A stretch of 36,700 nucleotides of DNA. Origin: an uncultured Helicobacter sp. (GTDB taxonomy: Bacteria > Campylobacterota > Campylobacteria > Campylobacterales > Helicobacteraceae). The stretch covers positions 1 through 36,700 of the forward strand of contig CAMWUR010000018.1 in the NCBI GenBank assembly GCA_947177485.1, in the 5' to 3' direction. The notes under the pieces were generated by a model. The model was given only the letters and a program-made list of their open reading frames with translations, made no database searches and was not told the origin of the DNA. Positions 26,601 to 30,574 of the stretch are shown piece after piece (position 1 is the stretch's first letter; every line of letters starts with the position of its first letter). A program made the position numbers and the translations under genes.

Positions 26601-28349
26601 ATGGAAATTTATAAAAAACGTCTTGAATCATTGCGCAAAAACATGCGGGAGAATCATCTTGATGTGTGCGTGATTCTCAATTCTGACCCACATCTAAATG
26701 AATATTTGTCAGAGCACTATCAAGCTGTGCAATGGCTTTGCGGATTTGACGGCAGCGCGGGCACGCTCATGGTTACGCAGGATTATGCTGGGCTTTGGAC
26801 AGACGGGCGCTATTTTGAGCAAGCATTGCGGCAGCTGCCAAGCGATGTTGTGCTCGAAAAACAAAGCGCGGCAAGAAGTTATAGACAGCAGCTTGCAAAC
26901 TTTAGTAAAAAAGGCTGGAAAATCGGAATCGACTTTTCGATTCTGCCTTTGGCTACCTACAAAGAACTCTGCAATCTGCTCAATCCCGCCTTGCTTGTCG
27001 ATTGTGATTGCATTGGAAACATCTGGAAAGAACGACCAAAACGCGTTACACATGAGATTTATGCACATGAGCTCGATGTTTCGAGAGCACAAAAGCTGCG
27101 CGATGTGCGCGCCAAAATGCGGCAAATGGGCCTACAATGGCATTGTATCAGCAGTCTTGATGATATTGCGTGGATAACAAATCTGCGCGGCAGCGATATT
27201 TTATACAATCCCGTGTTTTTTGCCTTTTTGCTCATTTCTAAAAATGAGGCACAACTCTTTTTACATATCAAATCCTTACCAAAATCATTGCAAAAAGAGC
27301 TGCATGCCGATGGCTTTTGCCTCTTCCCATATAAGCGCGCGCAAAAAGAGCTCGCCAAGCTCAAGAAAAAACACGTACTTGTCGATAGAATCACCACGCG
27401 CACGGCACAAATCTTGCGACAAAACGGCAACACATTGCATGAGGAGCTTGCGCCAAGCACCCTGCAAAAGGCTTGCAAGAGCGAAGCGGTGATTGCGCGG
27501 ATTCAAGACGCGATGATTCGCGATGGAATCGCACTCTGTCGGTTTTTTGCATGGCTTGAGCAAGCGCTGCCAAACGAATCGCTCGATGAATGCGACATCG
27601 ACACGCGCCTCACGGCATTTCGTGCAGAAATGGAACATTATGTCGGCAATAGTTTCGCGACAATCGCGGGCTTTGGCGCAAACGGCGCTTTGCCACATTA
27701 CCAAGCCAAACGCGGCACATGCGCGAGGCTTGTCGGCAATAATCTCTTATTGCTCGATTCGGGCGCGCAATATTTGGACGGCACGACCGACATCACGCGC
27801 GTTGTGCCTGTGGGCGAACCAAACGAAGCGCAAAAACGTGACTACACGCTCGTTTTGCAAGCGCATATCGCGATTGCACAGACACGATTCCCCGAAAAAA
27901 TTGCCATGCCGCTGCTTGATAGCATTGCACGCGCGCCGCTGTGGCGCGAAGGACTTGATTATGCGCACGGCACGGGGCATGGCGTGGGATATTTTCTGAA
28001 TGTACACGAAGGACCACAAAGCCTCTCGCTCAACGCCCCTATTTCGGCGCGAACACAGGTGCACGCAGGCATGGTAACCTCGATTGAACCCGGAATCTAT
28101 CGCGAAGGGCAATGGGGCATTCGGCTCGAAAACCTCGTTGTCGCCATGCCAAGCGCGCATGTGGGATTCTTGGAGTTTGTGCCGCTCACCCTCTGCCCGT
28201 TTGAGCCGCAGTTGATTGTGCGCGCAATGCTCACGCAATCACAAAAAGAATGGCTTGATTCCTATCACACACGCGTTTGGGAGCTGCTTTCGCCACATCT
28301 TGAAGGTGCGGCACAGGAGTGGCTTGCAAAAAGGGTGGAGAAAATTTAG
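26601..28349 (+). CDS. X-Pro aminopeptidase (M24B family)
   Basis: This 582-residue cytosolic metallopeptidase removes N-terminal residues before proline. It has three domains as in the long aminopeptidase P form: two creatinase-like N-terminal domains (from LESLRKNMRENHLDV) and the pita-bread catalytic domain. Metal ligands are visible in DSGAQYLDGTTDITR (about 386-400), HGTGHGVGYF (about 456), SIEPGIYREGQWGIRLENLV (about 495-515). ATG 26601 follows AAAGGA. An upstream TTG-type start inside the FtsL-like gene is unlikely. It ends the ctpA run and converges on the cassette at 28353. Confidence 0.9.
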   Translation: MEIYKKRLESLRKNMRENHLDVCVILNSDPHLNEYLSEHYQAVQWLCGFDGSAGTLMVTQDYAGLWTDGRYFEQALRQLPSDVVLEKQSAARSYRQQLANFSKKGWKIGIDFSILPLATYKELCNLLNPALLVDCDCIGNIWKERPKRVTHEIYAHELDVSRAQKLRDVRAKMRQMGLQWHCISSLDDIAWITNLRGSDILYNPVFFAFLLISKNEAQLFLHIKSLPKSLQKELHADGFCLFPYKRAQKELAKLKKKHVLVDRITTRTAQILRQNGNTLHEELAPSTLQKACKSEAVIARIQDAMIRDGIALCRFFAWLEQALPNESLDECDIDTRLTAFRAEMEHYVGNSFATIAGFGANGALPHYQAKRGTCARLVGNNLLLLDSGAQYLDGTTDITRVVPVGEPNEAQKRDYTLVLQAHIAIAQTRFPEKIAMPLLDSIARAPLWREGLDYAHGTGHGVGYFLNVHEGPQSLSLNAPISARTQVHAGMVTSIEPGIYREGQWGIRLENLVVAMPSAHVGFLEFVPLTLCPFEPQLIVRAMLTQSQKEWLDSYHTRVWELLSPHLEGAAQEWLAKRVEKI

Positions 28350-28352
28350 AAT

Positions 28353-29015
28353 CTATGAGAACATTTTGGAAAGAAACTTTTTGAATGGCGCGAGTTTTTC
28401 ATGATTCCAATCAAACGCGCCAGCCTTTGCTGCCTCGCCAATTTTTAGCGAGACATAATCGTCATGGATAGAAAAATATGTGTGGAGTTTTGTTTTAAAT
28501 GGGCGGGAAAATTTGAAATGATATTTTTCTTTTAATGTGTCCATGAAATAAACAATTTCTTGTTTTAATTCGGGCGCTTTGGCATTGGATAGAATCGAAA
28601 GGCATAAATCCTCTAATGTGCCATTTGCGGATTCCGCATTGCAATTTGGAAAAAGCAAAAAGCCAATTTTTGGCGTTCCGTTTTCCCACATGAACGGAGA
28701 CTTTGGAACGGAAAGCCCATTTGATTCGAGCGATTTTTGAATCGATTGTATGGCAGATTCAAAATTTGTTTCCGCGTCTCGAATGATGAGCAGAGATTTG
28801 ATATTGTCAAAATTGTCATCATTTCGCAAAAGCTTGAGACGATTAGTTAATTCATTATTCCCACCAAAATTGATGATTTGTATATCTTCAGAAAAATTTG
28901 GACTAGTATCGGATACGCTATCGAGATATGTTTTTAAAAATTCTTGGGCATCGCGCCCCTCACAAACAATTAAATATTGCTTTTTTATTTCTCGATTTGT
29001 GGTTCGCGGCGGCAT
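28353..29015 (-). CDS. TOPRIM-like protein (DUF3226 type), putative defence nuclease
   Basis: This is a 220-residue protein. The N-terminal strand-loop YLIVCEGRDAQEFL places Glu19 where TOPRIM domains have their catalytic Glu. A later strand, SLLIIRDAET (Asp80, Glu82), fits the acidic DxD/E motif. A GTLEDLCLSIL segment (about 130) resembles DUF3226 proteins as I remember them. TOPRIM domains of this kind act as Mg2+-dependent nucleases in OLD-type systems. Its ATG forms TAATG with the ATPase stop, so the two are almost certainly made together. The region is strongly AT-rich compared with flanking genes. Family assignment is by motif, not by search. Confidence 0.7.
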   Translation of the reverse strand: MPPRTTNREIKKQYLIVCEGRDAQEFLKTYLDSVSDTSPNFSEDIQIINFGGNNELTNRLKLLRNDDNFDNIKSLLIIRDAETNFESAIQSIQKSLESNGLSVPKSPFMWENGTPKIGFLLFPNCNAESANGTLEDLCLSILSNAKAPELKQEIVYFMDTLKEKYHFKFSRPFKTKLHTYFSIHDDYVSLKIGEAAKAGAFDWNHEKLAPFKKFLSKMFS

Positions 29016-30079
29016 TAGCGCACCTCCATATCTTCTGCAATTGCTATGCGCAAAAGCTCATCGGAGTAGCGATAAGTACGATTCTGTGTACCCTTTTTAT
29101 TAAGTCGAAAATAACAAAACTCATGCTTTCTATCCGCAGATTCTATGCCGTCAATTGCGCCAACGATACATTCATAACTATGCGTAGTCGCGATGATTTG
29201 GCATGCATATTTGCGAGCAATCGTGGCAATAATTTCCCATAATTTGGGATACATCGCATAATGGAATCCGCCCTCGATTTCATCGATAAGAAAGATAGAG
29301 TTAGGGTGAGAAATGATAGACACAATCAGACATAAGAGCTTACTCGTCCCATCTCCCATTAGATTCAACGGGAGCAAATGGTCATTTGTTTTGACATAGA
29401 GCGATGCTTGCCCATTAGTAGAAATTGTGGTAATATCCTGAATACTTTTATCAATCATCTGCATGATGTCAATCACATCTTGCTTCTTTTGCTGCATTTC
29501 GATTATGCCAAAATCATCAATAATGGCAACATCAAACATTCGCCGATTATTAATAAATTGAACATAGGGCATAAGCTCGACTTGATTGTCTTTATTTGTC
29601 GTCATGTTTTGAAAGATTCCCGTTTGTCCAGCAATAAAATGCCCTTCTTCAGTATAATCTCCCCTTGCATATTGAAACTTAAGTGTGTATTTTGATTTTG
29701 CAGATGTTACGATGTCGTTCATAATCTCTTTTGGCATAGAAGCATTATAGATTGGGACAAATGAAGAATCGCGCGCATATTTTAATATTGCCAACGTATC
29801 ATCAAAGTTCATTTCAATCTGTATTTCTCTATTGATGTCCATTTGATAAAAAATTAATTCCCACAGAATCGAACTATGGTTAAGTATATAATTTCCACGA
29901 AATATATTAATTTTCTCAAAAGAATCCGGCGCCTTATGGTCAAAAAACAAAAAAACTGCCTCCAAAATGGCGCTTTTCCCAACATTATTCTTGCCCGATA
30001 TTAATGTAATCGGGCACATGTTCGATAATTCGATGTCCTCAAATCCTCTAAAGTTTCTCAATCGCATGCTACGAATCAT
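29015..30079 (-). CDS. AAA ATPase, OLD/SMC-like (AAA_15/AAA_21)
   Basis: This 354-residue protein has an ABC/SMC-type ATPase head. N-terminal RSMRLRNFRGFEDIEL leads to Walker A GKNNVGKS (29-36). A signature-like LMGDGTSKLLCLI lies near 240, Walker B SIFLIDEIEGGFH near 260-267, and the His-switch ATTHSYE near 298. The middle is a helical insertion (VIDIMQMIDKSIQDI). No TOPRIM domain is fused; that role is probably filled by the overlapping downstream gene. ATG 30079 follows GAGGGGA; a TTG at 30100 lacks support. Such ATPases pair with TOPRIM proteins in AbiL, PARIS and OLD-type phage defence. It is divergent from ssrA. Confidence 0.82.
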   Translation of the reverse strand: MIRSMRLRNFRGFEDIELSNMCPITLISGKNNVGKSAILEAVFLFFDHKAPDSFEKINIFRGNYILNHSSILWELIFYQMDINREIQIEMNFDDTLAILKYARDSSFVPIYNASMPKEIMNDIVTSAKSKYTLKFQYARGDYTEEGHFIAGQTGIFQNMTTNKDNQVELMPYVQFINNRRMFDVAIIDDFGIIEMQQKKQDVIDIMQMIDKSIQDITTISTNGQASLYVKTNDHLLPLNLMGDGTSKLLCLIVSIISHPNSIFLIDEIEGGFHYAMYPKLWEIIATIARKYACQIIATTHSYECIVGAIDGIESADRKHEFCYFRLNKKGTQNRTYRYSDELLRIAIAEDMEVR

Positions 30080-30158
30080 TGTTCCCCTCAATCTCTGCAA
30101 TCATCATAAAAACAAAACCTACCACACGCAAGCTTCAAAACCGCTTAGTATTCTGCTC

Positions 30159-30187
30159 TTGACAAAACAGCTAAAACGTACTATAAT
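30159..30187 (+). promoter_or_regulatory. Consensus sigma70 promoter of tmRNA
   Basis: A perfect TTGACA (30159-30164) and perfect TATAAT (30182-30187) are separated by 17 bases. The tmRNA 5' end follows 17 bases after the -10 box. It is by far the strongest promoter in the window. Confidence 0.88.
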
Positions 30188-30203
30188 CCCCGCTTACGCT
30201 CAA

Positions 30204-30574
30204 GGGGTCGACTTGGCTTTCGACGGGAGTTTGTGAGCTTGAATCGCATGTGGGTCTGGACACACCCTAAAACTATCCGCGTCAAGTAAACGCAAACAAT
30301 ACAAACTACGCTCCAGCTTACGCAAAAGTCGCGTAAGTTTAACAACTCTTCGGAGCCGATTTGCTTGGGGATTCTAGCTATCTTTGCAAATCGTCATAAC
30401 CCGCTAGATGCGCCTCTGTGTTACCGAGCATTGGGGCAAAGATTTTAGGTTGCGTTGCTCTTTTGTTTTGGCTAGTTTTAAGGATAGCAACAAAGTTTTA
30501 AACTATGCCTAAGCATGTAGACATTTAAGTGGTCAGATTTTCGGACTGGGGTTCGATTCCCCACGACTCCACCA
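30204..30574 (+). ncRNA. ssrA: Transfer-messenger RNA (tmRNA)
   Basis: tmRNA rescues stalled ribosomes and tags nascent proteins for proteolysis. The 371-base gene starts GGGGTCGACTTGGC and ends with GGTTCGATTCC (T arm), then CGACTCC, A and the encoded CCA. The acceptor stem pairs GGGGTCG with CGACTCC, with one G-T. The tag frame resumes at GTA 30286 and encodes VNANNTNYAPAYAKVA, stopping at TAA 30334-30336 (after the tRNA-borne Ala). I remember the H. pylori tag as ending YAPAYAKAA, so this one is a close relative with Val in place of Ala. Confidence 0.97.

Follow-up and report, generated by a model that had tools for sequence, protein, structure and literature searches.

A DUF3226-type split OLD-family module beside ssrA in an uncultured Helicobacter: a divergent branch of a catalogued candidate defence system

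Introduction

Modules that pair an ATPase with a TOPRIM protein have been characterised in several forms. In PARIS, a hexamer of the ATPase AriA sequesters the effector AriB, phage triggers activate AriB, and AriB then cuts tRNA (PMC12409363). The system acts as a back-up when Ocr inhibits restriction (PMC9122126). TOPRIM toxins neutralised by AAA proteins have been validated experimentally, and AbiLii, from the AbiL abortive infection system of Lactococcus lactis, has been reported as RloB-type (PMC10440598).

Here we consider a two-gene cassette within a window (the whole stretch of DNA analysed) of 36,700 nucleotides, which is a complete contig of a 2.04 Mb uncultured Helicobacter sp. genome in 97 contigs. 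PADLOC assignments throughout are HMM matches to PADLOC 2.0.0 models, and by these matches the cassette is a DUF3226-type split OLD-family module that PADLOC already holds as the candidate system PDC-M38. The initial annotation of this DNA had proposed a split OLD-like ATPase with a different TOPRIM partner, and this reading stands, the partner being neither DUF4435 (as in PARIS) nor RloB. Its further suggestion that the pair was possibly not described as its own type does not, as PADLOC 2.0.0 contains PDC-M38A and PDC-M38B; since the annotation itself held that a direct hit to a named system would remove the novelty, most of that novelty is gone. In the openly accessible literature we found no papers on DUF3226 or PDC-M38, nor any results of phage challenge or toxicity assays on a DUF3226 pair.

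Layout and composition of the cassette

The features of the locus are as follows.

26601-28349, plus strand: M24 aminopeptidase gene (pepP-like), a housekeeping flank convergent with the pair
28353-29015, minus strand: DUF3226 TOPRIM protein gene, 220 aa; predicted nuclease effector (PADLOC PDC-M38B)
29012-29016, minus strand: TAATG stop/start overlap of 1 nt joining the ATPase and TOPRIM genes into a single operon
29015-30079, minus strand: AAA ATPase gene, ABC/OLD-type, 354 aa; predicted sensor/regulator (PADLOC AbiLi and PDC-M38A models)
30080-30203, no strand: intergenic region common to the divergent ATPase gene and ssrA, containing the ssrA promoter
30159-30187, plus strand: ssrA promoter, consensus TTGACA-17-TATAAT, within 30080-30203
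30204-30574, plus strand: ssrA (tmRNA), a flanking gene outside the cassette

Both open reading frames, which are on the minus strand, and their overlap lie where the initial annotation had placed them, and the tmRNA gene is indeed their neighbour. The ATPase gene is first in the operon and the DUF3226 gene second, and no clear promoter for the ATPase gene was found in the intergenic region 30080-30203. The marked AT-richness reported for the two genes was confirmed: their GC contents (0.372 for the ATPase gene and 0.373 for the DUF3226 gene, against 0.472 ± 0.030 for the 32 other long ORFs of the window) are the lowest among the window's long ORFs, as are their GC3 values (0.39 and 0.35 against 0.498 ± 0.035).

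The ATPase

The ATPase carries the complete motif set first read from the sequence, namely Walker A (GKNNVGKS), signature (LMGDGTSK), Walker B (FLIDE) and the His-switch (TTHS), with G29, K35, G242, G244, D266, E267 and H300 invariant in 21 relatives. It matches Pfam AAA_15 and AAA_21, the PADLOC AbiLi model end to end (3.7e-57, 192 bits) and PDC-M38A over residues 1-354 (3.6e-47). The PADLOC AriA models score 88 and 85 bits, well under both of these, and the best NCBIfam match, MAD3, reaches 41.6 bits and so falls below its cut-off of 420. At the profile level the protein matches OLD at 3.9e-10, and the fold of its predicted model (pLDDT 83) matches Rad50, retron Eco8, Septu PtuA, GajA and OLD. 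A search for its close relatives gave one GTDB contig (CAMXAV010000018.1, from an uncultured Helicobacter sp. MAG) and none in viral contigs or phages.

The DUF3226 partner and its metal site

The DUF3226-like features noted in the partner are borne out by a Pfam DUF3226 match of 1.7e-25, far above the cut-off, and PDC-M38B is matched over residues 6-220 of a 220-position model (1.6e-11). DUF3226 behaves as a TOPRIM family in sequence comparisons, with Pfam Toprim matched by 7 of 18 relatives and OLD-like_TOPRIM by 6. Fold comparison of the predicted models, which the initial annotation had proposed alongside that of the ATPase, likewise points to TOPRIM: Foldseek with the partner model (pLDDT 77.5, the K174 region being of low confidence) places retron-Eco2 TOPRIM proteins top (probability 0.99) and the C-terminal region of Xcc (Xanthomonas) OLD at rank 4 (probability 0.95), at weak E-values of 2.3e-3 to 1.2e-2, none below 0.001. 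No close relatives of the partner were found in GTDB contigs, plasmids or phages.

The acidic residues Glu19, Asp80 and Glu82 are at the positions first given for them; E19 is the strand-1 Glu expected of the superfamily, D80-x-E82 follows, and TOPRIM structures are the top fold matches. E19, D80, E135, K174 and Y180 are essentially invariant in 44 relatives. Judged by motif order and spacing, E19, D80, E135 and K174 have their apparent counterparts in B. pseudomallei (Bp) OLD at E400, D455, E508 and K562 (PMC6755086), and motif order suggests the same for positions 23 and 82 with E404 and D457. Of the OLD-type two-metal ligands, E135 and K174 are present, and the E+4 position is Ala23. It is at these last two positions that the protein departs from its family: position 82 is Glu here, giving D-x-E in place of the D-x-D of the other 42 relatives, and position 23 is Ala (with Asp22 adjacent) in place of the Asp found in all 41 of the other relatives with a residue there. 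Among the 44 relatives, Ala23 and Glu82 are seen only in the window protein and its orthologue in a second genome of the genus (G001).

Cleavage by Bp OLD was not discernibly affected when the matching positions were substituted singly, but triple substitutions abolished it (PMC6755086). Nuclease activity of the partner is therefore still plausible, but catalysis is not assured, because the protein departs from other DUF3226 members at two positions of the metal site. This divergent metal site seems to be the sole new feature of the cassette. A more speculative idea, which we think rather improbable, is that the site has been rebuilt (D23A with the adjacent D22, and DxD to DxE) in a lineage of two Helicobacter-related genomes and kept under purifying selection for a different substrate, metal or chemistry, or for a non-cutting role, as compared with all other DUF3226 effectors.

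Coupling of the two genes and family identity

The initial annotation had proposed a survey of co-occurrence, and the two genes prove near-universally coupled: a cognate ATPase gene adjoins DUF3226 on the same strand at 46 of 48 loci in relatives, mostly at a spacing of -23 to +5 nt. In three DUF3226 pairs (L012, L021, L028) the ATPase gene is seemingly split into two ORFs, a possible sign of decay or phase variation.

HMMs of the ATPase and TOPRIM families built without the window lineage recover the window ATPase at 3e-55 and the window TOPRIM protein at 3.1e-20. The partner has no match to AbiLii or RloB (PF13707) models at E<=1 and none to PF14491 (DUF4435). Local HMMs gave background only for RloB (E 0.04 at best) and, for DUF4435, E-values of 270 (window protein) and 4.3 (the orthologue in G001); the source genome has no DUF4435 protein. 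Against the model of DUF3226-partner ATPases, those encoded next to RloB or DUF4435 genes reach no more than ~32 bits, except at one locus (L193), which is itself a broken DUF3226 pair. Because HMM recovery and ATPase scores separate in this way, the DUF3226 pair is a separate subfamily; membership of PARIS or RloAB is rejected on the ATPase subfamily scores together with the DUF4435 and RloB HMM results.

History of this copy and the ssrA site

In G001 the pair occupies the corresponding site, with collinearity over 7.3 kb, amino acid identities of 81% and 79% to the two window proteins and an equally low GC content. Between the source genome (G000) and G001, dS for the pair is 0.47-0.49, within the 0.44-1.18 of flanking genes, and dN/dS of 0.21-0.25 indicates purifying selection. 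In a third species, G003, the pair is absent and the site spans ~700 bp. This vacant site holds an ORF of 122 aa (L064, 909-1277) whose long hydrophobic stretches suggest that it may encode a membrane protein, and for which no Pfam or PADLOC match was found.

Identity in the pepP region is 84.4% for G000-G001, 84.8% for G000-G003 and 89.5% for G001-G003, and flanking DNA is 89.5 and 93.6% identical between G001 and G003, compared with 84-90% with G000. As flanking identity is highest between them, G001 and G003 are taken as sisters, and the absence in G003, being within the closer pair, reads as loss. The simplest history is probably that the pair was present in the ancestor of the three species and was lost in G003; separate gains by G000 and G001 are a conceivable, less simple alternative. 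No relatives of the pair were found in other members of the genus, and no close one elsewhere in the order.

The low GC content had been taken as a sign of recent mobility. However, a second species carries the pair in synteny, with a dS resembling that of the flanks and an equally low GC, so the AT-richness of the pair is not a sign of recent arrival, and recent horizontal gain is rejected on the reading of G003 as a loss together with a pair dS lying among those of the flanks. The suggestion of a common island site at tmRNA does not hold up either. Integrases act at the 3' end of ssrA, where GNAT and ABC-transporter genes follow in this genome. The pair lies 5' of ssrA and before its promoter, which is the wrong end, and neither flanking direct repeats nor an integrase were found with the cassette.

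Genomic context of relatives

For most of 20 sampled relatives, as many as two genes to either side of the pair were taken, giving 67 proteins, and compared at a PADLOC threshold of 1e-20 with 67 control proteins drawn from elsewhere in these and related genomes. The neighbours match 113 PADLOC families as against 1 in the controls, although a single protein may match many models and the family count thus overstates the number of genes. Most of these matches are to type I, IIG and III restriction-modification (R-M), and R-M genes fall within the sampled stretch for 6 of 20 pairs, compared with 1 of 20 controls. At two loci R-M genes directly adjoin the pair in the same orientation, as though transcribed together with it: type III (res, mod) at L117 (1013-7614) and type I-like (methylase, specificity) at L113 (6364-12182). 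The window copy has no known defence gene beside it, R-M included, and its flanks are housekeeping genes.

The source genome also has a second DUF3226 pair (L095, 4473-10495, on G000:C10), which adjoins a DNA methylase (N6_N4_Mtase), a SLATT/2TM CBASS-type effector and a SMODS cyclase, and that region is a defence island. A single 614-aa protein fusing an AAA ATPase with an OLD-like TOPRIM domain is found on another contig (L096, 1030-2874, on G000:C41), so this genome holds both split and fused forms.

DUF3226 is patchy across the phylum (56 of 397 sampled genomes). Related pairs are also carried by plasmids, including a mobilizable plasmid of A. baumannii, a 13-kb plasmid of A. variabilis and a 4-kb ColRNAI plasmid of K. 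pneumoniae (L197, NZ_CP070094.1), where the pair is almost the sole cargo; on one small Acinetobacter plasmid the pair adjoins BrnTA. In the K. pneumoniae record the TOPRIM gene spans the start of the sequence, and the gene table does not list it.

Proposed function and alternatives

The coupling of the two genes, the defence-rich neighbourhoods and the presence of pairs on small plasmids make a PARIS/AbiL-like defence role likely. The initial annotation's candidate phage-defence system thus survives as a probable defence function and loses its claims to be undescribed, to mark an ssrA island and to be recently mobile. We consider it probable that the cassette is a split OLD-family DUF3226 defence module (PDC-M38) with a PARIS/AbiL-like mechanism, for which PARIS is a plausible working model; by analogy with PARIS and with the AAA-neutralised TOPRIM toxins, the ATPase most likely restrains the TOPRIM effector until infection.

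We infer phage defence, sequestration, trigger, substrate and nuclease activity in the following form. The ATPase would oligomerise and keep its TOPRIM partner inactive. A cue from infection, such as a phage anti-restriction protein or perhaps some other trigger, would then lead the ATPase to release or activate the TOPRIM protein, which would cut nucleic acid via its two-metal site, and growth of the infected cell would stop before phage release. It may cut tRNA, like AriB, or DNA, like OLD and GajA. The frequent R-M neighbours of relatives would fit a back-up role under restriction inhibition, the window copy itself being without an adjacent R-M gene.

Direct action on incoming DNA in the manner of OLD or Gabija, in which the ATPase would sense DNA ends or nucleotide state and its TOPRIM partner would degrade phage or plasmid DNA without abortive infection, is an unlikely alternative. 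The catalytic set fits that of OLD DNA nucleases (PMC6755086), the ATPase is Rad50/OLD-like, and the Toprim and OLD-like_TOPRIM matches of the relatives agree with it; the two-gene layout, however, is of the PARIS and AbiL type, no helicase partner adjoins the pair, unlike in Gabija, and the substrate is not readable from sequence. Less probable again is a pair that works mainly as a toxin-antitoxin-like addiction module, in which the TOPRIM toxin and ATPase antitoxin maintain themselves or their carrier, with phage defence at most a secondary role. In E. coli, AAA-TOPRIM pairs from other families do behave as a toxin with its neutraliser (PMC10440598), and the near-sole-cargo ColRNAI pair and the small Acinetobacter plasmids, one with BrnTA alongside, are what such a module would lead one to expect. 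Yet in PARIS the deletion of either gene is non-toxic, which excludes a toxin-antitoxin system there (PMC9122126), the ATPase gene comes first in the window pair, chromosomal pairs show an enrichment of R-M and CBASS genes nearby, and one species has lost the pair from the site. A conserved housekeeping or DNA-repair function of the lineage is very improbable, for although the pair is kept at one locus in two species under purifying selection with flank-like divergence, and a role in the cell cycle is described for an OLD ATPase of archaea (PMC12796447), it is absent from the same site in G003, which is closer to G001 than G000 is, it lacks relatives in the rest of the genus and close ones in the order, and the DUF3226 family is patchy, plasmid-borne and often interrupted.

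DUF3226, listed as a protein of unknown function, is now tied to OLD/RNase M5-type TOPRIM nucleases and to a dedicated ATPase. In Helicobacter and its relatives it is also linked to neighbourhoods of defence genes (R-M, CBASS), and Acinetobacter and Klebsiella have copies on plasmids. It thereby becomes a widespread, uncharacterised candidate system that is directly testable, and the window copy is a divergent natural variant that could be useful in establishing which metal ligands matter.

Comparison with known systems

In PADLOC, DUF3226 pairs already fall along a continuum of ATPase-TOPRIM modules that takes in AbiL, PDC-M38 and MADS. Among 18 DUF3226 relatives, 16 match PDC-M38B, 10 match AbiLii (best 3e-15) and 8 match mad4.

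The OLD and Gabija GajA proteins (classes 1 and 2) share with the cassette the ATPase fold and the two-metal TOPRIM residues, but in the window the ATPase and TOPRIM are unfused and there is no UvrD-like helicase neighbour. PARIS ('class 4 OLD') resembles it in having separate ATPase and TOPRIM genes (AriA and AriB), and its AriA models match the window ATPase, the better at 88 bits; it differs in that AriB is DUF4435, which the window partner is not, and in that the window ATPase is of a distinct subfamily. For MADS (mad3/mad4), the likeness lies in MAD3 as the best NCBIfam match of the ATPase and in the mad4 matches of the relatives, and the difference in the shortfall of 41.6 bits against the 420 cut-off for MAD3 and in the lack of a methylase system beside the window copy. 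AbiL (AbiLi/AbiLii) is nearer on the ATPase side, where the window protein matches AbiLi, and more than half of the DUF3226 relatives match AbiLii; the window partner itself has no AbiLii match at E<=1, and its RloB profile score is at background. PDC-M38 is matched by both window proteins over nearly their full length and has the same two-gene layout. It is a candidate for phage defence only, and the window copy differs from other DUF3226 proteins at two metal-site positions. The cassette is a real, well-formed candidate defence pair, and represents an unusually divergent branch of a catalogued candidate system.
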